Source: Hyperoplus lanceolatus
Taxonomy: Eukaryota > Chordata > Actinopteri > Uranoscopiformes > Ammodytidae
DNA: 64,000 nucleotides
Direction of reading: 5' to 3'
NCBI GenBank assembly: GCA_026929865.2
Contig: CM049402.1
Coordinates: 10,567,001 to 10,631,000, forward strand
Position numbers and translations under genes: made by a program. This document shows positions 9,413 through 56,687 of the stretch, piece after piece (the first letter of the stretch is position 1; every line of letters starts with the position of its first letter). The notes beneath the pieces were generated by a model, which was given only the letters and a program-made list of their open reading frames with translations, did no database searches and was not told the DNA's origin.

Positions 9413-9458
9413 CTTGGTCTAGAGACTTGGCAGGAGCCCAGCTTTTGAAGTAGTCATC
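9413..9458 (-). CDS. spock3: Testican-3-like (SPOCK3) exon, DDYF exon
   Basis: Testicans are secreted, calcium-binding chondroitin/heparan-sulfate proteoglycans of the extracellular matrix. On the minus strand a 46-bp exon is bounded by an acceptor (TTTCCACTCAG) and a donor (GTGAGTCC). It translates to DDYFKSWAPAKSLDQ plus one leftover base G. Testicans have a conserved segment of the form DDYFRxWxPxKPFDQ followed by Ala, and the leftover G suits an Ala codon in the next exon, so sequence and phase both agree. The 9-bp exon 2.07 kb upstream (11,527-11,535) supplies E-A-E, equivalent to the EVE that precedes DDYF in testican-3 as I recall it. Neither the following cysteine-rich exon (DPAKDPC region) nor the signal-peptide exons were found. 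Family assignment is likely; the paralogue rests mainly on the microexon. Confidence 0.7.
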
Positions 9459-10660
9459 CTGAGTGGAAACACAACATAAGAAACTGGGTTAAGAAAAAAC
9501 AATACTCCATGCTGATTATATATTTGAATTATTTTTTAGACCACAGAGAGAACCGCCCATATACTAAGACACTCTACTGAGGAAATATGAGCTAATTTTT
9601 ATTTCCTTTTGTTCTTTCATATTTGTGTTTGGTAGAAGCGAATGATTACAATAGAAAAAGGACACAGAGAGGTAACAACTTCAAAATATAGGACATACAT
9701 TTACAAAGAGAAACATGCAGGAGACACCCTGGAGAGTTTAGAAAGTTACAGGCTCTAGTAAAAGAAGAAGAAGAAGAATATGTTTAACTTGAACAAAAAC
9801 ATTTCACGTCAAGGTTTAAAAACAATTACTACAGCTCTAGAATGAAAAGGAAAGAAAAGGGACTTTGTAGTGTTTATTTCTCGGTTTCCAAAAATCTTAA
9901 TTGAGGAAGCGTACATTCTTTTCAATTTTTTTTAATCAAATACAACATAGTATAAAGTCATGTACGGAGTAAGAGGATTGTTCTTTAGCATCACAAGCAT
10001 ATCAATGTCACAGATACAAGTGAAAGGATTAGTTAAAATAGTCTATGCAGTTTATAGAACTAAAATATGCATGAAGGCAGGAGTGGTATAGATGTTGTGT
10101 TTGCATATTGCAGTGTAGTAGCAGCTGCAACAGAGCACTCTCAGGATAATCTGCTGATGAGCCTTTAAAGGCACTACAATGGTTTATTACACACTATAAT
10201 GTAGTTGTAAGCAGATTTTAAGTGTTTAATGATGTTCAGTATTAGTCAATAAGTTTTGCTATTTTAGTTTATTACAACACTTTGTAGTACATATATCTAT
10301 ACACCCCCCCATAGTATTCCCCCTAGATTTAGTTGTTGGTTGGGATGTACACACAAGCAACTGAATATACTGGACCTCACTACACAGCCTATTGCTCAGA
10401 TAGTAGCACTATTTTTCAAAGTGTGAGGAGATCTATCAATCTATCCATCCATCTATCCATCCATCCATCAAGCTTTTCTACACCGGCATTTACTAACGAG
10501 TGCCCCTGGGAGGAGCTATGGTGTTAAAAAATACATTAATAAACACTTATATCTGCTAACAACCACAGTGGATTCTAAATCATTTATGTAATGCTTATAA
10601 ATTCCTTACTACTCTCAAGGGTTTTCTCCACATCGCAAGCTATATACCGTGCATGCACAG

Positions 10661-10714
10661 ACACACACAAACACAAACACAAACACAAACACAAACACAA
10701 ACACACACACACAC
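10661..10714. repeat. (CA)n/(CAAACA)n microsatellite
   Basis: A mixed ACAC and AAACAC array. In the duplicated copy (about 55,760-55,830) the same place has CA followed by CT-rich repeats, so it has diverged since duplication. Confidence 0.9.
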
Positions 10715-10863
10715 ACTGAAGTGGTGCCTGGAGCGAGCCATTTGTGTGTCAGCTGGAAGTGAGCCTGTGTCAGTGACACTATGTGAACTTGGCAGAGAAA
10801 ACCTGCTGGGTTTAAAAGCAGGATCTCTACATCCTTTATTATTAAATAAAAGAGGTAGAGAAG

Positions 10864-10867
<4 letters not shown>

Positions 10868-10914
<47 letters not shown>
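10868..10914. repeat. (GA)n microsatellite
   Basis: A pure GA array of about 46 bp; the duplicate at about 55,978-56,025 is shorter and interrupted. Confidence 0.9.
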
Positions 10915-10917
<3 letters not shown>

Positions 10918-11526
10918 AGGAGAGCGGAAGCTAAATGAACCAGTCACAGAAAACAGTCCACATAAAATGGACAGCTGACCCGCTCATCCAGTCCTTGTTC
11001 TATAAATGACAACTGTCGACCACTGAGCCAACAGAAAAGTTTGAAATGGGACGATGAAACCTAATTAGCTTCTCCCTTAGGTCTTCCCTTTACGCATGTC
11101 CTCACTTTTTTATTTCTTATTTTATGTCAGTCGCTCCTGCTCTGTCTCTACTATAAAATGATCCTTTATGGCGGTGAAAGTGCAAAGTAGGATAATAATG
11201 GTTTGAAGCTATAGAAGCAATCAGGCCATCCCTTAAGGTGTACAGTATATAACGCCCCTAATCGGTCGTTAAGGTAAGGTATGCATACCCAAACCGCTAT
11301 ACCTGTAAGACTATAGCAACATTTTGATATGCAATACTACACCACATTATGTCCAACCAGCCACCCAACCTGCTGTGCATTTTAATAAGCAACACCTTTC
11401 CAGCTCTGCAAAAATGCATTGAAGCAAGTGCTAGACAAATAATTCAATGTCTGGGGCTTCCAGTAAAGTACCGCAGTATGTAACAGAGTAGTATAATCAA
11501 AGAAATTACACAATGAATGTACTCAC

Positions 11527-11535
11527 CTCCGCTTC
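11527..11535 (-). CDS. spock3: 9-nt SPOCK3 microexon, copy 1 (E-A-E)
   Basis: On the minus strand the nine bases GAAGCGGAG lie between an acceptor (CGCTTACTTAAAG, preceded by a long CT-rich tract) and a perfect donor (GTGAGTAC). They encode E-A-E in phase 0 at both ends, so inclusion or skipping keeps the frame. As I recall, human testican-3 has EVE immediately before DDYF. The next exon on this strand (9,413-9,458) begins with the codons for DDYF. The order, phase and sequence fit a testican-3 microexon. An identical copy lies at 56,679-56,687. Nine bases alone cannot prove homology; the neighbouring DDYF exon is the main support. Confidence 0.65.
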
Positions 11536-11853
11536 CTTTAAGTAAGCGTAGAAGGAGACAGAGAGAGAAATAGAGGGAAGAGAGAAGAGAGAGAGAAAGA
11601 AAGGTTAGTGATTATGGCACAGTATGCTCTGTCTATCAGATCTATGACAACCATAATGTGTTACCCCTCCTGAATACTGAGCTCCACTCTTGAGATTCAT
11701 TTATTAGGAATCTGATTCCGAAGATGGAAGAATACCAAAGGACTCACACATACACACACTCGCGCTCGCAGACTTATTTGATGTGACATGTAATTTGAAA
11801 CACATTTAGGGGCAAATTGTACAGGCTTAGATTGGAGACATAGCATAAAGGGA

Positions 11854-11861
<8 letters not shown>

Positions 11862-11894
<33 letters not shown>
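11862..11894. repeat. (GA)n microsatellite
   Basis: A pure GA array of about 33 bp, shorter in the duplicate near 57,009-57,026. Confidence 0.9.
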
Positions 11895-11897
<3 letters not shown>

Positions 11898-13819
11898 GAG
11901 AAAAAGGGTGAGTGTGCAAAAGTAGAGGCAAGAGGAAAAAAAGATATATAAATTTGAAATTGTGTTATCATTGTGGTTGGAAGGAGAGGGTTATAGGGAT
12001 GTTCCGTGTTTACTCATCTGAATGAGGGTCTAAGGATTGATGGAGTTGTATATTCTGCGCTCCTTATAAAGGCAAAATACAGTACTATACGTAATACAAA
12101 ACTGAGTTATGACAGGAAGGATTTACTGGAGTACCACATTACTGTGAAAACAGCATTTTAAACTGTCTGGAGAGACAGACAACTAGATCAGAAAGAAGAA
12201 CAGAAAGCTAGCTGATGAGATAGCCATGGCTAGCCTTAGATAGTGCTACATGTGCCAACTATCCCTTTTCTATATTTCAAAAATATCCCTTTGAAAGAAC
12301 AACCATCTTTGTATTCCACTAAGGGCTGGATTATGAAGAGCATATTATTTTCTCAGTTTTGCGTAGAGTATGTTATGAAAGGTCTTTCATTTAAGCTATA
12401 CACACCTATTTCACTTGAATTGACTTGCTGCTAGCTAATATAAAGAGCTTCCGATCCTAACCCACACACCAGTTCACCTTTTCTGTATCTGTACACAGCA
12501 CCCCCAGTAGCTTTGGGTATAACCACCTGACAGTGATGGATTACAGCCCATTGGAGGCTCACAGTGAAAAAAACTGTGTGTGTGGCTGAATCTCAAACAG
12601 ATCCTGCTGAACAAATATACTTGGTGTTGTCCTGTTGATTTCTGTGCCATCTGGATAAATTGCGACATGTTGGTGTTTTCTGCTGAGTTCAATCTAACCT
12701 GCAGCTAGAAACATGTTGTGGGTACCAGAGAGAGTGTTTCATCTGTTCTAGTCAGCAAACAGCATTTACAGTGTTCAGCAGAAGGACTGAGGGGCTGTGG
12801 CCTGAAATGCACTTGAACTGTTTTTCTTATAAGCTGGTGTGACTTAAGGTTAACAGCGGCTGCCGCTGGCCGCTCTTATTATTCAATACCAAGTCCCAGG
12901 CATGACCTTTAGTGCACTCATCTCGAAAGCATAAAGTATCTGTTAAACTCGCTGCAACACGGCCCCAATGTCAGTCAAACTCTGGCAAGTGATTGCAAGA
13001 ACATAAGTGTCGTTATTAACTAGTTTTCAGAAGTGATTTTCCCAGTGAAGGATGTATTTCCACTTCGCTCATTTAAAGCTACAGTCATGCTGCATGGACT
13101 TTTTTAGCAAGACAAAATCAGAACAGTTTAGTTTAGTCTTCTTTAGGGTTGAATTCAAATCTGTTTAAAATGTAGCACAGCAGCTGTCAGTGAAAATGGA
13201 ATTCCTAATAATAAAAAATGTAGTTAAAGAGAGATAACAACTTCAATGTAAACTATAAATAAGCATAGATGGTAACGCGATGTTCAGTCCTGTGGTAAGC
13301 AATGCAACTGCCTACTTTCTGTATTGTTACCCAATATGAACATGTGTTGTATTATAAGGAAATTATTAAAGCTGTTGGACAGTCACTGAATGTTGTGTTA
13401 GAACATGTACATACAGTACATCATATGATTGCTGGAATACTTTAACAGGAACTAAAATTTGTAATAGTTCCAAAACAGTCCCTGGCCTCTGTTGACCGTA
13501 TATCAAAAGTAATTCCATGCAGTGAGTTCACAGATTTTAAGAAGAGAGCATTTAGAGAGAGAATGGTAATGGATCTGTACTCCATATTGGTAGGTGGCCC
13601 AGGAACTTGGATCGGTAATGATAAAAGAGAAAGTTGGCTCGGAGCATCCTTGGTGTTAAAGCAGATAGCTTTATTATGGCTTTGTACCAGGTGTGGGGCA
13701 GCTAGGGATTCAGACTACTTGACAACCTTTAGGATTGCTATGAATATAAAAAAGATATGAAAACATTTAAAAAATTTTTTTTTAATAAATCTGTTTTTCG
13801 ACTTACGGTTATGGCACGG

Positions 13820-14804: not shown

Positions 14805-14813
14805 ATGGCACGG

Positions 14814-16591
14814 TGCTGAGTGCAAATCACCAACTACAAACCAAAACCCCCTCAGACCACAGGTAACATTCTCCTTGCTAACGAATTGAATAAGTTTTAC
14901 TGCCGATTTGAGCAACAGTCTGCCCCCTCTGCTCCTGCCCCCCCTCCCCCTCCCTCTTCCTTTCCTTTCCCCATCCTTCCCCTCTGTGCCCTACCCCTTC
15001 TGCCCGCCCACACCTCTCTCAGTGAGAGAGGTGAATCGCCTGTTCAAGAGGCAGAACCCCCGGAAGGCGGCCAGACCAGACGCTGTCTCACCCTCTATCT
15101 TGAAGTTTTGTGCTGACCAGCTGTCCCCGGTGTTCTGTGACATCACAACTCCTCCCTGGAGCACTGCCAGGTCCCAGCCTGCTTCAAGGCCTCCATCATC
15201 ATTCCTGTCCCCAAAAAGCCGAGGATCACAGGCCTAAATGATTACAGACCCGTTGCCCTGACCAATGTGGTCATGAAGGTCTTTGAACGCCTCATCCTTG
15301 TCCACCTGAAGTCCATCACAGACCCTCTCCTAGACCCCCTGCAGTTTGCGTATAGGGCCAACAGGTCCGTGGAAGACGCGGTCAACATGGCTCTACACTA
15401 CGTCCTGGAACATCTGGACACTGCAGGGACCTACGCCAGAATTCTGTTCCTGGACTTCAGCTCGGCGTTTAACACCATCTTGCCACCTATACTGGAGAGT
15501 GGGCTCTCTGCGCTGCAGGTGCCTGACTACACCTGCAGGTGGATTACTGATTTCCTGTCCAACAGGACCCAGCGGGGTGAGCTCGGGAAGTACATCTCCG
15601 AGCCGAGGTCGATCAGCACCGGTTCCCCGCAGGGCTGCGTCCTGTCTCCCCTTCTGTTTTCCCTATACACCAACTGTTGCACCTCCAGCCACCAGTCGGT
15701 CAAGCTCCTTAAATTCGCGGACGATACCACACTGGTAGGGCTTATCTCCAGGGGGGATGAAGCTGCCTACAGGAGCCAGATCGACTTGGTGGTTTCTTGG
15801 AGCAACCAAAACAACTTAGAGTTAAATGCTCTTAAATCAGTGGAATTAATAGTGGACTTCAGGAGAAACCCCGCCTCCCCTCCAATCATACTGGGAGGCA
15901 CCCCAGTCGCCACAGTGGAGTCTTGCAGATTCCTCGGGGTGACGCTGTCTCGGGACCTGAAGTGGGGGCCAAACATCGATGCCCTCACAAAAAAGGCCCA
16001 AAAACGTTTGTTTTTCCTGAGGCAGCTCAGGAAATTCAAACTGCCAAAATCCATGCTGGTGAATTCTTACACGACCATCATAGAGTCCATCATCACCTCC
16101 GCCATCATCACCTGGTTCCCCGCTGCAGCGGCCAAGGACAAGGCAAAGCTGCAGCGGGTGATACGCTCGGCGGAGAGGGTGATTGGCTGCCCCCTGTTTA
16201 ACAGCAGGGCTCTGGGGAGGGCCAGGAAGATCATGGCTGACCCCGCACACCCAGGCCACGGTCTCTTCGCCCCGCTCCCTTCAGGCAGGAGGTTGCGGTC
16301 ACTAAAGGCTCTAAAAGCTAGACATTCAAACAGCTTTTTCCCCACGGCCATCCGACTCCTAAATGCAACTGCCCCCCTGACCTGTCTCCCCACTCAGTGA
16401 CCTAATGGTCTGTCGTACCCAATCACTGATCTCTTGGCATTTTGGCACTTCTTTATTATTTACTCATTTTGCACTATTTTGTTGGTTTTGTCTTGTCCTG
16501 TCATGCACCTGTCCTGTTGCAAACTCCTGTGCGAAACAAATTCCAAACATGTTTACATGTCTTGGCAAATAAAGACTTCTGATTCTGATTC
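14814..16591 (+). mobile_element. Rex1/Babar-like (L2/CR1 group) LINE, 5'-truncated
   Basis: The element carries the linker typical of these LINEs (ITNYKPKPP at about 14,823, in a frame with a shift near 15,000-15,240) and most of a reverse transcriptase (15,267-16,400). It ends with an AATAAAGAC motif and a terminal TCTGAT/GATTC repeat at 16,566-16,591. The 5' region is interrupted at 14,813 by the 9-bp-TSD transposon. The same 3' end and flank recur at 34,289-34,801 in duplication pair 2. Confidence 0.85.
15267..16400 (+). pseudogene. Reverse transcriptase fragment of the LINE
   Basis: This 377-codon frame holds reverse-transcriptase motifs in order: [10 protein letters not shown] (residues 61-70, first catalytic Asp), [10 protein letters not shown] (119-128) and FADDTTLVG (150-158, catalytic Asp pair). 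A thumb and C-terminal region follow with [16 protein letters not shown] and a typical LINE C-terminus ([20 protein letters not shown]). The N-terminal finger motifs and endonuclease are in other frames or absent, so it is an inactive remnant. It reverse-transcribed LINE RNA at genomic nicks when alive. Confidence 0.85.
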
Positions 16592-17686
16592 GGAGCCCCT
16601 CCAGTGAATTTGTTTACAGTGGTCAACTAAGCAATCTTAACTTGTGCATTAACCTCATTTTACGAATACTCAATGAAACCAAAAAACCACCCAAACTGAA
16701 ATATAAACACTTTTGCATTGCTAAGCGAGCTAAAATGATTTATCCATGAATTGTACACATTTCCCATTAATTCAGGATGTTTCCTAGCAATGGACATTAT
16801 CAGAATTTATTCAGGACGAAGGGCAGTGAAAATATGATTATTTTAACCCTCCTGTTATCCTCAAATATTACTAACACATTTCACCCTTGGGGTCAATCTG
16901 ACCCCAGGGATATTTGCCTCCAGAAAATGATTTACAGAAAATTGTTGACCAAGTTTTTGTGTTTATTTGTTGAATACATAAATAACCCCTTGATAATGAA
17001 ACCTATCAGTGAATTGACCTGTTCTGTAGCGTCACCATCGCCATACAAAATATTGTACTTTAGATGATCATTTTAGAGGGGTGCAAGTGAACTTGGGAAG
17101 ACTTGGAAATGACCAACTCGCAAGCCTATGGCTTCCTCATTTTGGCGGGAATTCACCAAAATATGAAAACCAAATATTCCAAAATTAATGTCGGACTAGT
17201 AACAGAATCATGGGGTTTGGTCAAGTAAGCAACACATTTTTCTAAACACTTGAAAGTAACTCTGATCAAATACAACATATAATTCATATTCAATAATAAC
17301 TTTCAAATGACAGATAGAACCAGTTAGATTAAAACACAGTCTGGGGGTCAGAACACAGGACCCTTAGGGCCAGCGGGTTAGGTGCGTTGGGCGCTTTGAA
17401 CCATTTTTGACACAAAATGATGAAGCGCTAGATTAGGATCAACATGAACGCGCATAGCTGTCGTTCGAAGGGAGGAGCTGCAGCAGGTAGCGTTGAGAAA
17501 CTCTCAACTGCAGCTTTAACCGAGGAACAAGATATGGCTGCCCACTCTCTCTCCTACTCTTCGTTTTGGCTATTGAGCCACTTGCCATGGCAAGTCGCAA
17601 GCATGCTGACATTACTGATTGCATAAGTATTCTCTAAATAAAATCAAAACCTTCCTGATTTAGTCTACTCCTGCTTCTTAACCCAC
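16592..17686. other. No gene recognised; duplicated flank of the ALDH3B exon
   Basis: The sequence is shared with about 34,802-35,835. It contains CCCTCCTGTTATCCTCAAAT with nearby GGGTCAATCTGACCCC, a motif from a dispersed fish repeat. I saw no splice-bounded exon. Confidence 0.5.
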
Positions 17687-18076
17687 CTATGTACTTGTCC
17701 TCTTCATTGCTCTCTCCTCCAAGAACAACCCTGCCACTGGACCTCCGGAGCAGTTCCATCAGGCGTGTCCAGTGTCGGGGTGACACTATGCGACACAGGT
17801 CAGGGGAGCTTTGAGGTTCCGTGCCATAGAAATCCTCCAGGGCCTCACGCAGTGCAGGCAGCAAGGCGTCCCGAGTGGCCAACGAGCAGAGCACATAGTC
17901 CGGGGCTATGCAGCTCTGGCCCGCGTTAAAGAACTTTGCCCATGGCGGCGGGGCAGCAGCTGCGATGCTCACCTCACCATATATGATGCACGGACTCTTG
18001 CTGCCGAGCTCCAGAGTCACCGGGGTCAAGTGGACTGAGGCTGCCAGCAGGATGCTGCGGGCCACGCTCTGTGAAC
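17687..18076 (-). pseudogene. Orphan duplicate of the catalytic ALDH3B exon (copy A)
   Basis: On the minus strand this 390-bp segment has an intact acceptor (GTCTTCTAG) and donor (GTGGGTTAAG) and an open frame throughout. It encodes the nucleophile-bearing core of a class 3 aldehyde dehydrogenase: HLTPVTLELG with the general-base Glu, NAGQSCIAPDYVLCS with the catalytic Cys, and ESNEEDKYIG at the end. Compared with copy B (35,836-36,228) it is one codon shorter: RRLAW is replaced by PPPW just before AKFFNAGQ. ELGGK has become ELGSK. It keeps the consensus-like LLRRSSGRVVLGG where copy B is scrambled. It lies downstream of the gene's terminal exon, with no companion exons, so it is probably a duplicated relic, unless a second gene copy continues outside what I can recognise. 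Confidence 0.85.
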
Positions 18077-18718
18077 CTAGAAGACAGAGAGGAGAAGTGT
18101 CACCCCTAAAACCCACCAAAAGCGTTAAGGAGCGTTTTACGCACTGGAAAAGACATCAATCAATGCGTTTTATTCGAGGCTACAGCCCCGGATATTATTT
18201 AATTAGCCCCGAATATATATATTTTTTAAACTGTAATAAAAAAAAAATTCCGATAGGCCCCAGGCTTGAAAACGTGACCTGAATCGTTTTTTTTTAACGC
18301 ATTTTTCAACGACGCGTGCGTAAACGCCAGATTGATGGCCAAATAAAAAGGTTCTGAATATATATATTTATCTACATTCTGCAACATAGTATTCATTATT
18401 AAACCTCATGAGTTGTTTATTACCCACTGATGGCATGTTTTCTCCATTATTGCGGTTCATTGCATACTCACACAAGGAAAACTGCTCTCAGCACAGAAGT
18501 TTTACACTTTGAAACGCGATGAAAAAACGGGACCGGTAGAGCCAGTGGTGCGTTCATCCGTGCGTACATTTCGACGGACTCCCGAGACGCTTTTTAGGGG
18601 TCAGTGTCCAAAGTGTCATTGTCTGTCATTATATGAAGAAACCACTTTGCTCTTCACTTATCTGGCTGGAACATCAGCACCAACATGCAGCACTTCTTTG
18701 CGTAGAAAGATGCATATT

Positions 18719-19040
18719 ACCGTAATTTTTGGACTATAAGCTGCGCCTTTTTCCCCATTTTTCGAGCCTGCGGCTTATATATCGGTGCGGCTAATAATAT
18801 AATAATTACACAGCACATTATATGTTCTGTAGCTAGTACTATTGCACTAAATGGTAACACTTGAATACGTTATGCAAATATGCAACTCGTTTGTTGAAAT
18901 GTTAATAAATGGGAGCTTCCTCAAGCAGCCATCTCTTTCCCGACAATCCCCTCTGTGCACAAACTCTTACATATGGTAATTAAGCATTAAAACACCTGCG
19001 GCTTATAGTCCAGTGTGGCTTATAGTGCGGAAAATACGGT
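18719..19040. mobile_element. MITE with ACCGTA...TACGGT ends
   Basis: The left end reads ACCGTAATTTTTGGACTATA and the right end TTATAGTGCGGAAAATACGG, which are inverted complements with few mismatches. Interior motifs CTGCGGCTTATA and GCGGCTTATAGTCC repeat the theme. This is a widespread short TIR family in vertebrates. A copy occurs at about 36,903-38,337, where a 1.1-kb element is inserted in it and the right end is degraded. Confidence 0.75.
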
Positions 19041-19159
19041 GCTTTATTTTCAGGTCGCTATTTAGACATTGTGGTGGTAAAATTCTTTCTTCGCGTTTCA
19101 TTACCTTACCCTCTCTTACTTTGAGAATGTTTCCCATTTGTTTGCCTTGTGACACACTG

Positions 19160-19549
19160 GGCTTCATTCATCAAACGTGCGTAGACCAGAATATTGGGTG
19201 TACTGTACGCACATTTCCACGCAAACCTCGGCATTTATCAATTTGGATACGAGCGTAGGGTACGATCAAATCTCACACCAGCTCTCACTTCGTGTACGCA
19301 AGTTTGTTAACAGCATGGACTTGCAGAGCCGGCTGTGCCGCGAAGCCTATGACTTTGTCAGACAATTGTTAGTAGATCATACTAATGCATGGTTTGTTCA
19401 GACCAGGATAAACATATTCATTACTTATAAATGTGAAGCTTATGGTGTTCAACTGAGTAGGAGCGCAGATTCAGTTGGGCCACTTTGGAGCGCTGCATTG
19501 GACTGCGTAAGGGCAGTTGGCTCCATCTTGCAGCTGGGGGTGGGGCTGT
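19160..19549. mobile_element. Truncated TIR element (GGCTTCATT, member of GGCCTCATTTAT family 2)
   Basis: It starts GGCTTCATTCATCAAACGTG and matches the left part of the complete element at 20,571-22,074 and its counterpart at 38,458 in duplication copy B. It is cut off at about 19,549 by Tc1 sequence. Confidence 0.7.
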
Positions 19550-22530: not shown

Positions 22531-23885
22531 ATGATTAGGCTTCACCGCAGATTTCAAGAGAAGACACAGTCTGTCGGTTCTGTAGGGCGCTTACTCTGTT
22601 CTTAAACGTTAGAATGCGCAAATTATTTTTGAACAAAACAAATGCTTAGTATATTTGTAGTGTTTGTAGATCATTTATTATGCAGTTTGTTCAATATGAG
22701 CCACCGGACCCACCGTACTGTGTTGCCTCATCGAATCAGAATGTCCGGTGTGCTACTTCACTTTTACCTGTCTGTATTGGAGCGCAGTTTATTGAATGCT
22801 TGGATTAAATGCAGTCAGTGGCGTAACTTTGATGTTCATATTGGTGGGGACACATTTTGGCGAAACGTCACACAATTTGGCGAAACGCCCTCGCCCCAGA
22901 ATCCAACCGCTCCCTAGTTTATTAACCAAACCAGTGTTATCATGTATCTATGTACAGTTTAGTCAAGAGTTGAACGGCTATCAATCGTTTTGCACTAAAA
23001 AACTTATTATATTCATACATCCTTGGCTGCTTATGTTTCACAGTAGGGCTGTCCTCGACTCTGAATTTCAGTTTACGAGTGAACCAGTGTTGCACCGAAA
23101 GCTGTGACCTGTCAGAATGTGTGACCCTAGAGGGCGCTGTTCTGAAGCGCGAGCGTGCCCGAGCCTCGGCGAGCCGGTGAGAGAGAAACAACACAAGCCG
23201 AGACGGCTGCAGAGAATGATGATTCGTGCGAGTAAAGACAAGACTCGCGGTCACAGGGGGGCTTAATTGTTTCAAGAGCGACCTATCTTTACTACAGCAC
23301 ATAGCAGGCAGAATCAATAGGCATATATGGTGCGCAATATACATCTGCTTTGGTTTTTTCTTTTGCCATTTCCTCTTTAGTTTTGACCACTCTTCTTCTA
23401 TGGCGTTTGACGTGACGTGACACATTACCGCCACCTATTGCCCTGGCATGATAACGTCAGTGTTTTGCTCTTAATACTCTCCACCATACTTCTTCTTCTT
23501 GTTCTTGTTCTTACTTCTGCCGCAAATTTCGAGCTGCTACTCCTCCCACACTGTTTCACTTAGAAACGCAAACATTTCACAGAACGTCCGTCCCTACCCC
23601 GAATGGTGTGCTATTATACAGTTTTTTGAATTTCCGCTAGGCGACCAAATAAGTCCGCCAGGGAATATTTCCAGCTAATTAGCATAAACTAAAAAACAGG
23701 GTGTTATCCACAACTTTCTGAAATTTTACTGTAACAACACCAAATTTCTCGTGAAGCCCCGGGGGACTATAATAAACATACCCGTAAAAGATCAGTAGGA
23801 CAACTTGAAAAACATGGCCGCCATTGACCAAAAAGTGTACGAAGGGGCGGGGCATATCGACAAATTGGCCATAACTAGACATTAG
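22531..23885. other. No gene recognised
   Basis: Short frames only. The region near 23,100-23,240 is richer in GC, and 23,340-23,480 resembles dispersed repeat material (ACCGCCACCTATTG). No exon boundaries or transposon ends were fixed. Confidence 0.4.
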
Positions 23886-24790
23886 GCTCCTCCCCTTTAC
23901 CACAGTAAGCTCCTCCCCTTTATCACAGTAGACTCCTCCCCTTTACCACGTTAGGCTACTCCCCTTTACCACATTAGGCTCCTCCCCTTTGCCACATTAG
24001 GCTCCTCCCCTTTACCACATTAGGCTCCTCCTCTTTACCACGTTAGACTCCTCCCCTTTACCACATTAGGCTCATCCCCTTGACAGTGTTAGGCTCCTCC
24101 CATTTACCATGTTAGGCTCCTCCCCTTACCACATTAGACTCCTCCCCAGTGTTAGACTCCTCCCCTTTACCGCATTAGGCTCCTCCCCTTTACAGTGTCA
24201 GACTCCTCCCATTTACCACATTAGGCTCCTCCCATTTACAGTGTTAGACTCCTCCTCCTTACAGTGTTAGGCTCCTCCCCTTTACCACATTAGACTCCTC
24301 CCCTTTACCACATTAGACCCCTCCCCTTTACCATGTTAGGCTCCTCCCCTTTATCCAGTGAGGCTCCTCCCCTTTACCACATTAGGCTCCTCCTTACCGT
24401 GTTAGGCTCCTCCCCTTTACCACATTAGGCTCCTCCCATTTACAGTGTTAGGCTCCTCCTCCTTAGCGTGTTAGGCTCCTCCCCTTTACCACATTAGGCT
24501 ACTATCCAGTGTTAGGCTCCTCTCCTTTACCACATTAGGCTCCTCCCCTTTACAGTGTCAGACTCCTCCCCTTTACCACATTAGGCCCCTCCCCAGTGTT
24601 AGGCTCCTCCCCTTTACAGTGTCAGACTCCTCCCCTTTACCACATTAGGCCCCTCCCCAGTGTTAGGCTCCTCCCCTTTACCACATTAGGCTCCTCCCCT
24701 TTACAGTGTCAGACTCCTCCCCTTTATCACATTAGACTCCTCCCATTTACAGTGTTAGGCTCCTCCCCTTTATCCCGTTAGGCTCCTCCC
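23886..24790. repeat. 23-bp minisatellite, array 1
   Basis: About 39 degenerate copies of a unit close to TTAGGCTCCTCCCC + TTTACCACA (23 bp). Common variants are TTAGACTCC, ATTTACAGTG and TTTACCATG, and units are sometimes shortened to CCCCAGTG. One strand is C/T-rich, the other G/A-rich. A second array of the same unit lies at about 39,060-40,074; each array follows a copy of duplication pair 2. Confidence 0.95.
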
Positions 24791-33100: not shown

Positions 33101-36100
33101 TTTAGCACTCACTATTCATGACACAGCAGCAGTGTGAACTATTATGACACTTTAAATGTTTAAATCATAGGGGAATATGTAGCCTATTAACAATTAGGAG
33201 ATATATCAATGTTTCATCCTGAATTGTTATTTTTACCTCTTTAGGAGAATAAGGTTTCTTATATTTTGAGAAAAAATGTAGGCTCTCTTCTGATTATTGG
33301 GGGGGACACGTCCCCGGTGCCCCCACCCCCCCCCACCCTCCCACCAAAAAAACGCCAATGGGCAAGCAAGAGTCTGTGAGTTTCTGAAAAAACTGCCTGC
33401 AACTGCCAACGAAATGTTCAATTTGCATCAAAGCCTAATGATCCATATAAAACTCCAGAGGCTTTATTACTTGATATCCATGTTTAAGTGGTGATTGTAT
33501 TTTTTCGAGCTGTAGACTGAGAAACTAACGGAGGGATGCGGCTCACTCTATTTTCTCTCGTCGCTCTGTCAGTTTGCCGACATGGTTCTGTGTTTTCATG
33601 CTCGTGAAATGCAATCCGATCGCGGAAGCCTCCCCTGATCAACGTTAGCGGACATGATATCATTTTAGCCATTAAGCCACAGAGCTTTTCTTCTCGGCAA
33701 GGTGATGACACCGTTACCTGTGGGTAACGGTGTCATCATGGGGTGAGACTGTGACTGTGGTCACAGTCTCACCCCATGTTTCACTGGGTGAATCACTGCT
33801 TTGCTCGCGCAAGGCTTTTGTGTTTCGGTTTAACATCAGTAGTCTTGGGCGAGACGGTGCTTTAACTTTATGCTGAATAACCATTGCACTGCAATACGCT
33901 GAAAGCGATATAGTTCAAGCGGGGGTGGACGGGGCAGAGCGGAGCGCACTAGTAGAGATGGGTTCGCTTAGCCACAGCTGCCAGTCGAATAATGATATAA
34001 CGTTCTTATCAGTTCAGTGAACAAAATAAATGCAGAAAACAGCGGTATTTAATGGAAATGGTCAAAGGTTAATTACAATTTGTTTTGTGAGCAAGTATTT
34101 TATTATTTTTATCATATTTATAAAAAAAAAATCACTCCCTCCTTTTTTCATTTGAGGGTGCAAACAATTTTTTTGAGGGTGCAATGCATGCTCATGCACC
34201 CCCGTAGAACCGGGCCTGTGTCCGACCTTGATTCACCAGTCAACAGTGTGAGCGTTGAAACAAAGAGTTCTCTCGAATGTCCTTTCCGCCATCATCACCT
34301 GGTTCCCCGCTGCAGCGGCCAAGGACAAGGCAAAGCTGCAGCGGGTGATACGCTCGGCGGAGAGGGTGATTGGCTGCCCCTTGCCCCCCCTTGGGGCCCT
34401 GTTCAACAGCAGGGCTCTGGGGAGGGCCAGGAAGATCATGGCTGACCCCACACACCCAGGCCACGGTCTCTTCGCCCCGCTCCCTTCAGGCAGGAGGTTA
34501 CGGTCACTAAAGGCTCTAAAAGCTAGACACTCAAACAGCTTTTTCCCCACGGCCATCCGACTCCTAAATGCAACTGCCCCCCTCCCCTGACCTGTCTCCC
34601 CACTCAGTGACCTAATGATCTGTCGTACCCAATCACTGACTTGGCATTTTGGCACTTCTTTATTATTTACTAATTTTGCACTATTTTGTTGGTTTTGTCT
34701 TGTCCTGTCTTGCACCTGTCCTGTTGCAAACTCCACTGTACCGAAACAAATTCCAAACATGTTTACATGTTTTGGCAAATAAAGACTTCTGATTCTGATT
34801 CGGAGCCCCTCCGGTGAATTTGTTTACAGTGGTCAACTAAGCAATCTTAACTTGTGCATTAACCTCATCTTACACGACTACTCCAATGAAACCAAAACCA
34901 CCCAAGCAGACGCAAACACTTTTTTGCATTTGCTAAGCGAGCTAAAATGATTTATCCATGAATTGTACACATTTCCCATTAATTCAGGATGTTTCCTAGC
35001 AATGGACATTATCAGAATTTATTCAGGACGAAGGGCAGTGAAAATATGATTATTTTAACCCTCCTGTTATCCTGATTGATTTACAGAAAATTGTTGACCA
35101 AGTTTTTGTGTTTATTTGTTGAATACATAAATAACCCCTTGATAATGAAACCTATCAGTGAATTGACCTGTTCTGTAGCGTCACCATCACCATACAAAAT
35201 ATTGTACTTTAGATGATCATTTTAGAGGGGTGCAAGTGAACTTGGGAAGACTTGGAAATGACCAACTCGCAAGCCTACATTGGCTTCCTCATTTTGGCGG
35301 GAATTCACCAAAATATGAAAACCAAATATTCCAAAATGAATGTCGGACTAGTAACAGAAACATGGGGTTTGGTCATGTAAGCAACACATTTTTCTAAACA
35401 CTTGAAAGTAACTCTGATCAAATACAACATATAATTCATATTCAATAATAACTTTCCAAATGATAGATAGAACCCAGTTAGATTAAAACACAGTCTGGGG
35501 GTCAGAACACAGGACCCTTAGGGCCAGCGGGTTAGGTGCGTTGGGCGCTTTGAACCATTTTTGACACAAAATGATGACGCTAGATTGGATCAACATGACG
35601 GAACATAGCTGTCGTTCGAAGGAGGAGCTGCAGCAGATGACGTTGGAAACTCTCAACTGCAGCTTTAACCGAGGAACAAGATATGGCTGCCCACTCTCTC
35701 CCCTACTCTTCGTTTTTGGCTATTGAGCCAATTGCCATGGCAAGTGTAAAGCATGCTGACATTACTGATTGCATAAGTATTCTCTGATAAAATCAAAACC
35801 TTCCTGATTTAGTCTCTCCTGCTTCTTAACCCCACCTATGTACTTGTCCTCTTCATTGCTCTCACTCAAGAACAACCCTGCCACTGGACCTCCCGGAGCA
35901 GTTTCCATCAGGCGTGTCCAGTGTCGGGGTGACACTATGCGACACACGGATGGGGAGCTTTGAGGTTCCGTGCCATAGAAATCCTCCAGGGCCTCACGCA
36001 GTGCAGGCAGCAAGGCGTCCCGAGTGGCCAACGAGCAGAGCACATAGTCCGGGGCTATGCAGCTCTGGCCCGCGTTAAAGAACTTTGCCCACGCCAAGCG

Positions 36101-39100
36101 GCGGGCAGCAGCTGCGATGCTCACCTCACCATATATGATGCACGGACTCTTGCCGCCGAGCTCCAGAGTCACCGGGGTCAAGTGGACTGAGGCTGCCAGC
36201 AGGATGCTGCGGGCCACGCTCTGTGAACCTAGAAGACAGAGAGGAGAAGTGTCACCCCTAAAACCCACCAAAAGCGTTAAGGAGGCGTTTTTACGCACTG
36301 GAAAAGACATCAATCAATGCGTTTTATTCGAGGCTATAGCCCCGGATATTATTTAATTAGCCCCGAATATATATATTTTTTAAACTGTAATAAAAAAAAA
36401 ATTCCGATAGGCCCCAGGCTTGAAAACGTGACCTGAATCGTTTTTTTTTAACGCATTTTTCAACGACGCGTGCGTAAACGCCAGATTGATGGCCAAATAA
36501 AAAGGTTCTGAATATATATATTTATCTACATTCTGCAACATAGTATTCATTATTAAACCTCATGAGTTTATTTTATAACCCACTGATGGCATGTATTCTC
36601 CTTTATTGCGTTTCATTGCAGCAGTGTTGATGGATAAATTGATAAGGAATACTCACACAAGGAAAACTGCTCTCAGCAGAAGTTTTACACTTAGAAACGC
36701 GATGAAAAAACGGGACCGGTAGAGCCAGTGGTGCGTTCATCCGTGCGTACATTTCGACGGACTCCCGAGACGCTTTTTAGGGGTCAGTGTCCAAAGTGTC
36801 ATTGTCTGTCATTATATGAAGAAACCACTTTGCTCTTCACTAATCTGGCTGGAACATCAGCACCAACATGCAGCACTTCTTTGCGTAGAAAGATGCATAT
36901 TACCGTAATTTTCGGACTATAAGCTGCGCCTTTTTCCCCATTTTTCGAGCCTGCGGCTTATATATCGGTGCGGCTAATAATATAATAATTACACAGCACA
37001 GTAGGGGAAGGTGGGGTGATTTGTGCATTTTGGAAGTTGCAAAACCCCTTGTTTCTAGAAAACCGTGGAAGAAATTGGAAATGTGACCACATATTTAAGA
37101 AGAGCCATCCATTTGACTCATCCTGTAAAGAAGGAGACACAAGGAATAAGATATAAGCACATTTAAGCTCAACAAACTGTGTTTTGCCTTTCAAAGTAAA
37201 ATTTCCAGCAGTCAAGGTTTTTGATTATTGTGTCTGAACAATTATAGACACGTTTGAAAACATTTGACACATGTTTTAGTGCTTTGGTATGCTACACTTT
37301 GAGTCTATATAGTTAGCACAATGTCAACCCTAAATTGCTGCATATTACCTGTATCCAGAATTCTGGGGATGGGGTGATTTGTGCGCAAGAGGTGGCCTAG
37401 GTGAGTTATAAGTAAGTAAGTAAGTAAAATTATATTTATAAAAGCACATTTATGACAGTTTGCACTGTCAAGTGCTGTACATAGTGCATTCAGTAGGTAA
37501 ACAATGAAGGTAAAATAACAATAACCAAAATAAAAGACGTAAAGCCCATACATCTATAAACATAGATAGTAGTGCAGAGGTAAGTAAGTAGTGCAGAGGT
37601 TAATGGGGAGGAAACACCAGGGTGTACATATGGGTTTGAGCCTTGATTTAAAGGCAGAAATGTAGGGGGAGATCACATTTGTCCAGGTGGCAGTTGGTTC
37701 CACAAGCACGGAGCAACTAGTGCAAAGTACATTCTGGGAGTTTGTGCCAGTGGCATGGCTGTATCGCTGGTCACCAAAAAGAAAGTGATAGTCTACAGTA
37801 AGCTCAGGAGAGAGTGACATCTCAATTCCCTTACTTGACACACCACTGATGAGTTCAGATGGCCAGAAAGATGATGATGGTGACTTTGTCATTGTGACAC
37901 AATGACGCACAAATCACCCCACGTAGTGGGAGTGATTTGTCGACAAGACTATTTTTTCCGGCTATATTTCTTAAACAGTTTATTCCAGATCCAAAGTTTT
38001 TATTGCCAGGGATGCAACATCCTGAAATATGTACATATTTGAGTTGGAGACATAACTGTCAAGGCCTCACTTTAAAATCACTTTGAGTAAAAAGTTGCAC
38101 AAATCACCCCACCTTCCCCTATATGTTCTGTAGCTAGTACTATTGCACTAAATAGTAACACTTGAATACGTTATGCAAATATGCAACTCGTTTGTTGAAA
38201 TGTTAATAAATGGGAGCTTCCTCAAGCAGCCATCTCTTTCCCGACAATCCCCTCTGTGCACAAACTCTTACATATGAGTAATTAAGCATTAAAACACCTC
38301 GGCTTATAGTCCAGTGTGGCTTATAGTCCAGATACAGTGCTTTATTTTCAGGTCGCTATTTAGACATTGTTGTGGTAAAATTCTTTCTTCGCGTTTCATT
38401 ACCTTACCCTCTCTTACTTTGAGAATGTTTCCCATTTGTTTGCCTTGTGACACACTGGGCTTCATTCATCAAACGTGCGTAGACCAGAATATTGGGTGTA
38501 CTGTACGCACATTTCCACGCAAACCTCGGCATTTATCAATTTGGATACGAGCGTAGGGTACAATCAAGTCTCACACCAGCTCTCACTTCGTGTACGCAAG
38601 TTTGTTAACAGCATGGACTTGCAGAGCCGGCCGTGCCGCGAAGCCTATGACTTTGTCAGACAATTGTTAGTAGATCATACAATGCATGTTTGTTCGGACC
38701 AGGATAAACATATTCATTACTTATAAATGTGAAGCTTATGGTGTTCAACTGAGTAGGAGCGCAGATTCAGTTGGGCCACTTTGGAGCGCTGCATTGGACT
38801 GCGTAAGGGCAGTTGGCTCCATCTTGCAGCTGGGGGGGGGACTGCAGTACGGGGCTGAATTCATTCATCGTCTCAAAAATGTTTAGTATTAAATATGTGC
38901 GCTATGCAAGTAGTACGCTGCTCTTTATATTAAAAAGACACTGCACAACATTCAGCTTTACATTCCATTTTTTTCGCGCAGTTATGACCACGCACAAACA
39001 CACATCACGCTTGCTACTACATTAATTGTGCAAAAATATATATATATATATTTTTTCTTATCACATTAGACTCCCCCCTTTACCACATTAGACCCCTCCC

Positions 39101-46711: not shown

Positions 46712-46789
46712 AGAGCTTAAGTAAAATGTCAACAAAACACACATCACAATAAAAAATAAAAAAATTGCTTATTTTGTTTTTGTTTTAAC

Positions 46790-48440: not shown

Positions 48441-51400
48441 TTCTGAAGGATCTTACCTCTAACTACTTGAATCTTGTTGAGTACTACTTTAAATTCTCTT
48501 TTCTGCTGGTTGTTACCGTTTCTGCTGTATTGGTTAAGATGTATTGACTGCATCTGTTGGTTTCCATTTAATTTGACTGTTTTGACTGCTTTGAATACTT
48601 TGTTTATCTGTCTGGATTAAGCAAGGACTTTACTGTTGCATTGCTTACACTTATAGTTAACTCTGTCAAATTAGGGTTTTGCATAGAATTACTACAAGGG
48701 GTGCTGTTCTGCTATTTTGCTAAATTCCGTCAGGTTTTTGGCTAAAGTTTTTGGCCTTTGTTGCTGGGCATTTGGATTGGTTTATATAGCTGGCCAATCA
48801 AACAGGGGCGTGGTCTCCACAGCTGTAGCAAACCACAATCAAATTTGATTATTTAAAAACAAGCAGCTGTGTGAAGAGCTTAAGCGGCAGGAAGACTAGA
48901 CAAAGGAGTCTACGCAGGAGTCTTTGTGGGAGGCTTAGCAGGCTAAGTATCATTTATTTGGTTCTTTGGTCTGTAACTATGTGTGTTCTTAACATCCCTA
49001 TCGGGTGTCCTCTCATAGATATTATAGGCCTCACGCATACTCACAGCACAACATACATAACCTCATTTATCCCACTCGCTCCACACACACCCAACACCTA
49101 GTCACAGGAGGCCTGTGGAACTGCCAGTCTGTTACCTGTAATACTGAATTCATTTCGGGCTTTGCTACCCAGCAATCCCTTGACTTCCTTGCTCTCACTG
49201 AGACTTGGATTACACCCACTAACACATCCACACCTGACGCTCTCTCCTCTGCCTACTCTTTCACCGACACACCCAGACCCACTGGTAAAGGTGGGGTACC
49301 AGGGCTACTTATCACCCCCAGGTGGGAGTTTTCCCTCTTCCAGATGCCATACTTTACTCCACTTTCTTATGAATTCCATGCTGTGACTGTAACTGATCCG
49401 GTTAAATTAAACATTGTTGTAATCTACCGCCAACCAGGGGCCTCATTTATAAAGCTTTGCGTGGGATTCACGTGGAAGCTGGCGTACGGAAGAAATGTAG
49501 GATGTACGTGCGAACAAAAATATTCGGATTTATAAAACAGTGCGCACTCACGTCCTACGCCTGTTTCCCTTTATAAATCACAATCAACTGTAAATGTGGC
49601 GCAGACTTTGCGGAAGCTGCGTACCGCCCATATTTACCCATACATAGTCATACGACACGCCCAAGTGTATAATTTACTGAGTGCATGAAGGCGGTAGTGG
49701 CAATCGCCGACTGAAAGGAAATGGAAAAATAGACTCCACGGTGTGGATCCTGCGGTCACCCCGAAGTACCCACGTTGGAGAAGTGGCGACCAGGAAAATA
49801 GTTTGGTGGCAGTGTGAGCGTAAAGCGTCAGAGTGCAGCCTGTGGCGATCTCTGTGAACGCTGGCGAAGAAAAGAAGCGATCCGACGCAAAGTGGACGCA
49901 AACAAGTGCATATCCTCACACAACAGTGTTTGTGCCACGAGCGGGGGACACTGAGACCCCCCATGAGATACAGATTCGGAAAATTCATCCCGGGGCAGTG
50001 GCGGGCGGCGGAGGGTTAATAATAAACTTCACAGTCCCTTTCAAAACACAATTGCGACGTGCTTAAACCCAAGAAAACACATAGATAAACGGACTAAAAG
50101 CCGTGAAAAAAATCACAGTAGCCTATGTGATGTACAGTAGGCTTATCATTAGTGTATGAAAAGGTGCACTCCTGTCTGCCTGACTGAGGCATCGAGAACA
50201 GCGTCAGTGTAAAAGTAATAGGCTGTATTCCACCTCAATATTATCAGAATTAATTCCACAACATGCAGATAGGTTATTCTAACTGCAGAGCTTATTCGAA
50301 CCCTATTTTGTTTTTATTTGCACTCATATAGCCTATCTCCGTTTGTAGGCTATGTAAGATCCTAATTCGTTTTGTTTTTGTAGGTATCACTCCATGGAAT
50401 AATCCGTGGAGGCATTTGTTCATTAGTTGTAAGAATGGCTTCATCCGTTTTGCAAAGGAACTCCCAATATATGATAGACCTACATGGCTTATAATAGGCC
50501 TATCTGGATTAATTTTACACAAACACATTAGTTCGCACTTCATACATGTGCCGACGGGTATCGTTTCTCTTTTCTCCACTTTCTGTGCGTACGCATGGGT
50601 CCAGGTTTGCGTGGAGGACTGCACATCTCCCGTCAAGTTTGGTTTTTATAAATCCCAATATTTGCTTAGAAATTGGCGTGCGCCCTCTTCTGGGCGTACG
50701 CAACGTTTATAAATGAGGCCCCAGGTCCTTTGGGTGAGTTCTTGGAGGAATTAGATGTCCTCCTTTCAAACATCCCTGAAAACAGCCCTCCACTTGTTCT
50801 TCTCTGTGACTTCAACACCCAGAAAAATAATCTATCCAACTTACCTATTTTACTTCCTTCTTTCGCTCTCTCACTCACCACCTACTCACAAAGCTGGCAA
50901 CCAGCTTAACCTCATTTGTACCAGAAACTGCTCCCCCTCCAACCTCACCGTTACCCCACTCCATATCTCTGACCACTTCTTTATCTCCTACTGTCTCTCA
51001 CTCTCTAAATCTAACAACTCTATCTCATCTGGAGATACTGTACATGTCTCCAGTCTATCACTCCTGACCTTCTCCCCTACATCACCCATCTTATTAACAA
51101 CTCCTTGTCAACTGGCTGTTGCCCCGACTCTCTTGATGAGGCAAGAGTAACTCCTCTCTTTAAAAAAAACCACCCTCAACCCGTCTGAAGTGAACAACTA
51201 CAGACCAGTCTCTTTTCTTCCATTTCTCTCAAAAACACTTGAGCGTACTATATATTTAATCAAAGAGCACAACCTTCTTGATCCCCACCAGTCTGGTTCC
51301 AAGGCAGGCCACTCAACTTAGACTGCCCTCCTCTCCGTCTCTGAGCGACTTCACACCGCTAGAGCAGCCGGCCTCTCCTCTGTGGTCATTCTTCTGGACA

Positions 51401-52740: not shown

Positions 52741-52888
52741 GGCAGCTGTGGCTACTATCGTAGTTTACCACCACCGGTATGACTGTGTGTGAATGAATGG
52801 AACCTGAAACCCTGTAAGCGCTTTGAGTCCTTAGGGAATAAAGCGCTATATAAATCCTATCCATTATTATTATTATTATTATTATTAG
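52741..52888 (+). mobile_element. L2-type LINE 3' tail
   Basis: GGCAGCTGTGGCTACTATCG, CACCACCGGTATGACTGTGT, GTAAGCGCTTTGAGTCC and AGCGCTATATAAATCCTATC followed by (ATT)n. This is the typical 3' end of fish L2 elements. It may be the missing tail of the L2 ending at 52,155, or a separate fragment. Confidence 0.8.
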
Positions 52889-54537
52889 ATTAAGCCAGGA
52901 GTAGGCCTTCATGTGGACTAGTTAAACTGGGACGTTTAAGTCACTTTCATAGATATGGCTTAAATTTGGCTTAGTTAGTCTGAGACTATGAAGTCCTGGA
53001 GTAAGGTAAGTAAGCCTGATTGTTAACACCTGTCCATGAGCACATGCTGCTGGTCCAACGGTGATCATAAAAACCCGGAGAGGAGCAGAAACACCATTGC
53101 TTGTGAGAAAAAAAAAATGGCAGAGGCTAAAAAAAACCCGTCAATAAACTTTAATGAATTTGAAAAAAATCTCTTAAAAAAATAGTTTGAAACCATCCGG
53201 TTATTGAATCTAAAAGCCATACTGCTGGGACTGAGCAAATAAATAGTTGGGCCGCAATTTGCAACAAATTCAATTAATGAAAATGTTACTAAGAGAACAA
53301 TACACCAACTTCAGGTTATCCTCATTATCGGTATTTCACATCTTTCTCATTTATAATTTTGACATTATATTTAATGATATCTGCACTGATAGGTAGAAAA
53401 ACCCGAATCTCGCTTTAAAGAAGAGCTTGCTAAAACCTTTCAACAAAGGACAAAAAAGATGACGTTGCATGAAAGTTAGCCCGAGAATTCCATGAACAGA
53501 AAATGCAATATCTGAAGGAAGTATGACATGAAAATGAAAATTCTACAGGTGGAATTGGACATTATTTAACCTTTATTTTACCAGGCAAAATTGATTGAGG
53601 TCTTATGACCTCTTTTCCGAGCAAGGCCTGGCCAAAATATAAGACAACCATAAGAAGAAAGCACAGTCATGAGAAAACGGAGACAAATACATTCCAGTGG
53701 GTGAAGAAGAACAACAATTTTGAGGCAATGATAAAATACTATTCAGTGAAACATTGACACACTCCAAAATTTGCCATTAAAAAACATGTGAGTCGAGTTT
53801 TAAAATCATTCATAGTGATGAGTTCCTGCAATGAGTGTTTTTTTAATAGTGCTCCAGGCGTAGTACATGAAAGCCCTCTTCCCAAACTCCATGAAGTTGG
53901 AAAAGAGAGCTATGATTCAAACAAGATACAGTACTGAGACAATTGTGATTACTAATCACAGTGAAGATATAAGTAGAAAATAAAAGGTGTTCATGTTGTG
54001 TTTTGTCATTTTGTTATTCATGTGTGTCAGTATTCTAAATCACAACAACCACATTTGAAAACAGAATTGTTTTAGACACTAATTTTATTATGCTGAATAC
54101 ATCTTCAATTTAAATGCATCCACCTAATAAACTCAAGCAAAGCTGTTATTTTCAGTGCATTTTCCATATTGAAAGCGGTCTCGAAATGTAGGTTCATCAA
54201 ATAAATGTTTTGGATAAGACCTATCCACAAGTACTCTTCTGGCTGGCCTCTGCAGTGGGAGTTGGTCTTCATTTAGATATTCCAAATAGCCCATGCTCTC
54301 TCACAAACACCACTAAAATGAAATTAAACCTGCCTCTTTGGAGGATTAATTTAAGATCAAATTTAGACCTAGAGTAGCTCTAATCGTCCGTTTTGCAATT
54401 GGCTTTGTTTAATCCAGAATATCTTTAATCTAGGACTATTTTAAACTGAGTCTGTTCAAGTAGCTTTGAATTGATCCAGCTCAAACAGTCATTTTAGTTT
54501 CGGACTAGACTTAAGCCTCGTCTGTGAAACCGGCCCA
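52889..54537 (+). mobile_element. TIR element relic with Myb/SANT-like coding remnant
   Basis: The right end is GACTAGACTTAAGCCTCGTC then TGTGAAACCGGCCCA, followed by TAA; this is a familiar Harbinger-type terminus. The left end, GATTAAGCCAGGAGTAGG, is a damaged counterpart without its outer bases. On the plus strand from 53,117 a broken frame reads MAEAKKNPSINFNEFEKNLL, a stop, and later NENVTKRTIHQLQ; at about 53,400-53,520 RFKEELAKTFQQR-like pieces follow. This resembles Myb/SANT-like proteins carried by Harbinger-type transposons. A dispersed repeat (TTAACCTTTATTTTACCAGG at 53,568 with GGCCTGGCC) is inserted further on. Confidence 0.55.
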
Positions 54538-55759
54538 ATAAGTTTTTAATTTGTTCTTTCATATTTGTGTTTTGAAGAAGCAAATGATTACAATAGAAAA
54601 AAGAGAGAGGTAACAACTTCAAAATATAGGACATACATTTACAAAGAGAAACCTGCAGGAGACACCCTGGAGAGTTTAGAAAGTTACAGGCTCTAGTAAA
54701 AAAAATGTGTTTAACTTGAATGAAAAACCTTAATGTCAAGGGAAAAAAACTTCAGCTCTAGAATGACAAAGCAAGAAAAGGGACTTTGTAGTGTTTTTTG
54801 TTTGGTAGTTTGCCAAAAATGTAGTTTGAGGAAGCGTACATTCTTCTCTATTCCTATTGATCAAATACAACATAGTGCAAAGTCATTGAGTAAGAGGTTT
54901 GGATTTGTCAAGCCTTTTTTTCTTATTCAATAGCATATCACGGATATAGTTACTATAAGTCTTTATTGTCAATTAACACATGCAGATTCACACATGGTAA
55001 GTCACACAAGGATATTGAAATTTAGTGAAAGGATTGGTTAAATAGTCTAAGCATCAGTTTATAGAACTAAAATATGCATGAAGGCAGGAGTGGTATAGAT
55101 GTTGTGTTTGCATATTGCAGTGTAGTAGCAACAGAGCACTCTGTTAGGTTAATGTTCAGGATAATCCGCTGATGAGCCTTTAAAGGCACTAAAATGGTTT
55201 ATTACACACTATAATGAAGTTGTAAGCAGAAGTGTTTCATGATTTTCAGTATTTTTCCACAAGTTTTGCTATGAAGCCATATTTCCGTGTATTACAACAC
55301 TTTGTACTATATATACTGTATATCTATATATTATTTTTTCCCCCAATAGTTTTACCCCTAGATTTGGTTGTTGGTTGGGATGTTGCACAAATAACTGAAT
55401 ATAATGGACCGCACTACATAGCATATTGGTTATTGGCAAAAACATTTTAAGTGTGAGGCAATCTATCAATATATCTATCCATCTATCCATCGAACCATCC
55501 ATCTATCCATCCATCCATCCATCCATAAATCATCCTTTTCTACATCAGCCTGTACTAACGAGTGCCCCTGGGAGGAGCTATGGTGTTAAAAAAATAAAAA
55601 AATAAACACTTATATCTGCTAACAACCACAGTGGATTCTAAATCATTTATGGAATGCTTCTAAATGCAAAAGAAAGGTTGTGTGTCACCAAACTTACAGG
55701 TCTCAAGTGTTTTCTCTACACTGCAAGCTACCCGTGCATTGCACAGACACTCTCTCACA

Positions 55760-55832
55760 CACACAACACACACACACACACACACACTCTCTCTCTCTCT
55801 CTCTATCTCTCTCTCGCTCTCTCTCTCTTTCT
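55760..55832. repeat. (CA)n/(CT)n microsatellite
   Basis: A CA array followed by CT repeats; the counterpart of the 10,661 array but with different composition. Confidence 0.9.
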
Positions 55833-56678
55833 TAAGTGGTGCCTGGAGCGAGCCATTTGTGTGTCAGCTGGAAGTGAGCCTGTGTCAGTGACACTATGTG
55901 AACTAGGCAGAGAAAACCTGCTGGGTTTAAAAGCAGGATCTCTACCTCCTTTATTATTAAATAAAAGAGGAAGAGAAAGAGAGAAAGAAAGAGAGAGAGA
56001 GAGAGAGAGAGGGAAGGAGAGAGAGCGGAAGCTAAATGAACCAGTCACAGAAAACAGTCCACATAAAATGGACAGCTGACCCGCTCATCCAGTCCTTGTT
56101 CTATAAATGACAACTGTCGACCACTGAGCCAACAGAAAAGTTTGAAATGGGACGATGAAACCTAATTAGCTTCTCCCTTAGGTCTTCACTTTACGCATGT
56201 CCTCACTTTTTTATTTCTTATTTTATGTCAGTCGCTCCTGCTCTGTCTCTACTATAAAATGATCCTTTATGGCGGTGAAAGTGCAAAGTAGGATAATAAT
56301 GGTTTGAAGCTATAGAAGCAATCAGGCCATCCCTTAAGGTGTACAGTATATAACGCCCCTAATAGATCGTTAAAATGAGAGTACAGCTCTGATCCGGGGT
56401 TGTTTGCCATGCTTTTAATTGCTTCAAGGTAAGGTATATGCATAACCGCTATACCCGTAAGACTATAGCAACATTTTGATATGCAATACTACACCACATT
56501 ATGTCCAACCAGCCACCCAACTTGCGGTGCATTTTAATAAGCAACACCTTTCCAGCTCTGCAAAAATGCATTGAAGCAAGTGCTAGACAAATAATTCAAT
56601 GTCTGGGGCTTCCAGTAAAGTACCGCAGTATGTAACAGAGTAGTATAATCAAAGAAATTACACAATGAATGTACTCAC

Positions 56679-56687
56679 CTCCGCTTC
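56679..56687 (-). CDS. spock3: 9-nt SPOCK3 microexon, copy 2 (E-A-E)
   Basis: GAAGCGGAG with the same acceptor (CGCTTACTTAAAG) and donor (GTGAGTAC) as 11,527-11,535 and the same CT-rich tract upstream. Immediate flanks are identical to copy 1 over more than 200 bp. In a minus-strand transcript it precedes copy 1; if both were spliced in, the product would gain E-A-E twice in frame. Whether it is used cannot be told from sequence. It may also be the other haplotype's copy. Confidence 0.6.

Follow-up and report, generated by a model that had tools for sequence, protein, structure and literature searches.

A twinned 9-nucleotide candidate microexon in a spock1-type intron of Hyperoplus lanceolatus, probably duplicated and homogenised by gene conversion

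The stretch analysed here, called the window, comprises 64,000 nucleotides (nt) of the fish Hyperoplus lanceolatus (contig CM049402.1, positions 10,567,001 to 10,631,000) and contains two identical copies of a 9-nt cassette with the features of a microexon, both within one intron of a testican gene. Coordinates are given in window numbering, and motifs were scanned on both strands of a 264-kb stretch made up of the window and neighbouring DNA. The testican gene occupies the minus strand of this larger stretch, running from a signal-peptide exon through a short exon encoding DDYF to further exons left of the window, the last of which is acidic and ends in GYVW. The signal-peptide exon (103157-103291) ends in WNRFRD followed by the donor gtgagt, at a phase-0 boundary. 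The DDYF exon (DDYFKSWAPAKSLDQ; 9413-9458, minus strand) consists of 46 coding nt, starts in phase 0 and ends in phase 1; its splice sites, read directly, are the acceptor CACTCAG and the donor GTGAGT. Because this exon is so short, its protein match (C8:10576408-10576461) was weak, with an E value of only 0.47. The motif scan of the 264 kb found one WNRFR-type exon and one DDYF exon, and both cassettes therefore lie within a single intron of ~94 kb. A genome-wide protein search gave at least 59 matches, 10 of them on the window testican gene (the search skips repeats, and match counts from the genome are lower bounds). When the exons were joined and scanned against Pfam, PF07648 (Kazal_2), PF10591 (SPARC_Ca_bdg) and PF00086 (Thyroglobulin_1) all scored above their cut-offs, so that the gene has the Kazal, SPARC-type calcium-binding and thyroglobulin-1 domains and the acidic tail of a testican.

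The paralogue was called from residue identity in a single exon, not from a tree. The SPARC exon of the host is identical to the human sequence at 67 of 74 residues for SPOCK1, 43 of 67 for SPOCK2 and 55 of 71 for SPOCK3. By this measure the host is of the SPOCK1 (testican-1) type, a gene for a matrix protein, and the testican-3 (SPOCK3) label that an earlier note on this DNA had given it was rejected. A SPOCK3-like gene is found elsewhere: the 14 SPARC-domain matches across the genome include SPOCK2-like exons on C15 and C17 and a SPOCK3-like exon on C5, the latter identical to human SPOCK3 at 44 of 65 residues. The listed exons of this SPOCK3-like gene (G000:C5:21820857-21826290) fall within ~5.4 kb, and the exon at the place of the DDYF exon reads EPGTWTPSKPFDQ.

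The cassette, GAAGCGGAG (Glu-Ala-Glu), occurs at exactly two sites when both strands of the window are scanned. Both are on the minus strand: copy 1 lies at 11527-11535, 2.1 kb upstream of the DDYF exon, and copy 2 at 56679-56687, in the same intron and 45 kb further upstream. The chance expectation for the window is 0.14 occurrences, and none of 100 shuffles yielded two. Each copy reads CTTACTTAAAG/GAAGCGGAG/GTGAGTACATTC with a CT-rich tract on its 5' side, and the AAAG acceptor, the GTGAGT donor and the CT-rich tract are the same, letter for letter, in both. The splice sites are of the GT-AG type, with a consensus-like donor context (GAG/GTGAGT). At 9 nt and phase 0 on both sides, the cassette has the size and symmetry of a symmetric microexon (3-27 nt, a multiple of three). 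Since both copies lie in one phase-0 intron, FRD-EAE-DDYF and FRD-EAE-EAE-DDYF would each be in frame. The sequence scan and exon reading thus bear out what the earlier note had claimed of the copies (two, identical, on one strand, with shared splice signals, in phase 0 and upstream of a single DDYF exon), and the reading frame would permit the insertion of 0, 3 or 6 residues, as it had proposed. Its match to the EVE insert of testican-3 holds as a likeness by analogy only; the cassette here reads EAE, and the host is SPOCK1-type. On the minus strand between 9458 and 103200 there are 25 sites of the form AG-N9-GTRAG, and the cassettes rank as the top two when scored for pyrimidines over the preceding 40 bases (0.82 in each, with the next-best site at 0.62).

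Self-comparison placed the cassettes in a duplicated intronic block on the minus strand (copy 1, 9602-13757; copy 2, ~54544-59856; ends approximate), the copies of which match in direct orientation; insertions make copy 2 the longer. The duplication extends to ~9602, which is 144 bp from the DDYF exon, and a relic of that exon was looked for in block copy 2 with none found. Between the blocks, three flanking stretches differ at 58/404, 74/650 and 226/1659 positions (11-14%) and by many gaps, while a short stretch closer to the core has 3 substitutions in 97. Around the cassettes lies a run of 474 bp with the same letters in both copies (11375-11848 and 56527-57000, minus strand), a probable gene-conversion tract; 2000 simulations in which sites diverged independently by 13% produced no identical run longer than 91. 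The wider zone of 10920-11842 has 11 differences at 920 sites, with 3 in 10920-11275, 8 in between beside a 54-base gap, and 0 in 11375-11842, and the limits of near-identity are abrupt and fall in CT and GT repeats. When 601 bp around copy 2 were used as a genome-wide query, at least 57 matches were returned, the two window copies covering 601 and 575 of the 601 bases. The remaining 55 of the 57 listed matches were short: 54 fell in the CT-rich part and one was the relic stretch described below. Because they sit inside a duplicated segment with a 474-bp identical core, the two cassettes are not independent chance hits. Judged from this self-comparison, the pair is the product of a local intronic duplication, and the best reading of the divergence pattern is an older duplication with a centre recently homogenised by gene conversion.

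An error of assembly, with haplotype copies placed in tandem or reads misjoined, would also put two alike blocks in one intron. The assembly has 527 contigs, and a 2.5-kb run of N, the only one in the 264 kb, lies 62 kb left of the window. However, the window itself is free of N, and the flanks have 11-14% substitutions besides numerous private insertions, a divergence that disfavours haplotype duplication in particular; we consider an assembly error very improbable. A single tandem duplication of ~50 kb that included the DDYF exon was likewise considered and rejected, because the ends of the left match (-483..814 with 49437..50725) are inverted in the manner of a transposon and because block copy 2 yielded no trace of that exon. 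The matching 1.3-kb element, 89% alike between its two copies, is probably a DNA transposon.

A second, inverted spock1-like copy lies on the same contig, ~420 kb from the first (C8:10941051-10948039). It has five exon places, all 3' exons, which show 66-97% identity in protein, and the DNA near the SPARC exon is 83-88% alike between the two genes (pieces of 131-1169 columns); such uneven divergence argues against simple dating. Exon 1, the DDYF exon and the Kazal exons of the inverted copy had no match among those listed by the genome-wide protein search, and the copy is therefore truncated, diverged or incompletely assembled, although the missing DDYF match says little in view of the E value of the true exon. 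In the piece of DNA designated L043 (C8:10811001-10815000), ~128 kb before the first listed exon of the inverted copy, positions 1303-1888 align with the core at ~62% over 620 columns, gaps included. From order and orientation, we infer that this part of L043 is in the same gene copy as the 3' exons. The cassette aligned there, near C8:10812670, reads TTAAAG/GGAGCAGTG/GTTAAT, and the inverted copy probably keeps one decayed microexon relic. The DDYF motif was not found in the next 8 kb past the relic, where two segments of the window (4158-4425 and 803-959) have weak matches that may be repeats. An inversion between head-to-head spock1 genes that joined both microexons is unsupported: the inverted copy has an aligned relic of its own, which speaks against inversion as the origin of the pair.

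The L043 alignment also bears on whether the identity of the core could reflect a strongly constrained splicing-control region, with no gene conversion. Symmetric alternative micro-exons are described as having conserved intron flanks of '> 75 bp' per flank (PMC4317164), and no other part of the block aligns with L043 over as great a length as the core, the only other listed stretch outside simple repeats being 240 columns at 63%. Identity at 474 of 474 positions is nevertheless far above the figure given for such flanks in that paper, and the abruptness of the limits, in CT and GT repeats, also counts against constraint. The ~62% likeness to the inverted relative shows that the core stretch can change, though the L043 copy may itself be free of constraint. 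We regard constraint without conversion as unlikely.

Taken together, we put at roughly 60% the probability that an optional cassette has been twinned by duplication and gene conversion in the spock1 intron, and that either copy is joined in splicing. The 9-nt phase-0 cassette would be spliced optionally between ...WNRFRD and DDYF..., and the resulting three-residue acidic insert would fall in the N-terminal part of testican-1, ahead of its Kazal domain. The intron segment that carries the cassette, 4-5 kb long, is present twice at a distance of 45 kb; the flanks have drifted by 11-14%, while ~1 kb around the cassette was kept nearly identical, most likely by gene conversion. Splicing may join either copy to the flanking exons, and the usual products should therefore differ by 0 or 3 residues; a 6-residue form, with both cassettes used, would be possible in frame. 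A neuron-type cassette is likely, on the analogy of the neural microexon in spock3.

It could instead be that a single copy functions as an exon, perhaps copy 1, which lies just 2.1 kb away from DDYF, and that the second is a passive passenger of the duplication and owes its identity to chance conversion. The intron holds further duplicated stretches, one with an identical AG-N9-GTRAG pair of its own, and the cassette of the inverted relative has decayed. The splice-site sets of the two copies are identical, which counts against a single working exon and means that local sequence cannot separate the copies. We think it rather unlikely, though well worth keeping in view, that one copy alone is used.

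Several observations weigh against optional splicing of a twinned cassette. The identical AG-N9-GTRAG pair just mentioned, at 19105 and 38403, has a pyrimidine content of 0.40 (among 15 of the 25 sites) and sits inside the second duplicated stretch; because it too is identical, by duplication alone, the identity of a pair proves little here. The cassette acceptor is AAAG rather than CAG or TAG. UGC is absent within 40 nt upstream of both cassettes, the nearest TGC being at -84, and the UC repeats lie at -30 to -62, so that the canonical SRRM3/4 layout of UGC and UC repeat directly upstream is not seen. The aligned cassette of the inverted relative has a poor donor. In the SPOCK3-like gene on C5, the 3.2 kb immediately preceding the KPFDQ exon showed no convincing cassette. 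Finally, reverse-transcription PCR (RT-PCR) on human pancreatic stellate cells is reported to have given a SPOCK3 form without either microexon (PMC5122892). The acceptor, the lack of a nearby UGC and the poor donor of the relative would all fit a cryptic look-alike, duplicated by chance and spliced at neither site, as would the fact that, among the open-licence papers searched, SPOCK1 and microexon occur together only in PMC5122892, whose microexon passage concerns SPOCK3 (variant spellings such as SPOCK-1 could escape the search). On the other hand, size, phase, frame, placement between FRD and DDYF and the GAG/GTGAGT donor all fit an exon, and the cassettes lead the 25 sites in pyrimidine content; a cryptic look-alike is in our judgement improbable. 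As for the missing UGC, 42 of 95 microexons are described as having both UGC and a UC repeat and 44 as typically having only one of them (PMC12626420), and its absence does not, on those figures, exclude regulation by Srrm4.

Twin microexons are not new in the testican family, since in human SPOCK3 exons 8 and 9 are reported to be 9-bp microexons of identical sequence (PMC5122892). In the account given there, four SPOCK3 transcripts share a coding sequence that differs by 3 residues from two others, so that 3 residues, rather than 6, is the difference that it describes; microexons of murine SPOCKs had been identified earlier, as cited in the same paper. The fish and human pairs are thus alike in gene family, in 9-nt size and in the presence of two identical copies per gene, and the fish cassette would add 3 residues in frame where the human isoforms are described as 3 residues apart. 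They are unlike in that the fish host is of the spock1 type and its cassette encodes EAE instead of EVE. Moreover, the human pair is found in annotated transcripts, as that account has it, whereas the fish pair is a candidate read from DNA and lies in a duplication with flanks 11-14% diverged. These fish flanks suggest that the pair is independent in origin from that of human SPOCK3. A testican microexon has also been described in another teleost: zebrafish spock3 was among 21 conserved neural microexons chosen for study, but its deletion introduced cryptic sequence and it was excluded from phenotype tests (PMC12626424). That microexon, which belongs to the srrm3/4-regulated set, is in a different paralogue, and one microexon is named there against two here; compared with it, the window cassettes have UC repeats but lack a UGC in the 40 nt that precede the acceptor. 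In a spelling-matched search of the open-licence literature, duplicated, tandem or identical microexons were nearly absent, turning up in one paper, and absence from that search is weak evidence.

The fish pair probably adds, with an independent origin, to a known and apparently rare kind. More speculatively, identical twin microexons could have arisen independently in human SPOCK3 and fish spock1, at one and the same optional three-residue site, with gene conversion preserving their identity because inclusion of a tiny exon in a 94-kb intron benefits from a second target; we hold this to be a doubtful extension. Identical microexon copies are indistinguishable in reads from spliced RNA. With its diverged flanks and a decayed relative close by, the fish pair can be used to test directly whether duplication and homogenisation of microexons serve inclusion dosage or are accidental, and testican genes are well suited to this question in view of the human SPOCK3 parallel.

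Other repeated sequences lie in the same intron. The second local duplication (16098-19548 with 34285-38844) is 93-98% alike and contains two aldehyde dehydrogenase fragments (PF00171; 17634-18155 and 35762-36313, both on the minus strand). Its beginning coincides with the 3' end of an open reading frame for reverse transcriptase, which would fit a 3' transduction. Two repeat arrays, at 23879-24790 and 39058-40071, show matches at many offsets, within each array as well as between the two.

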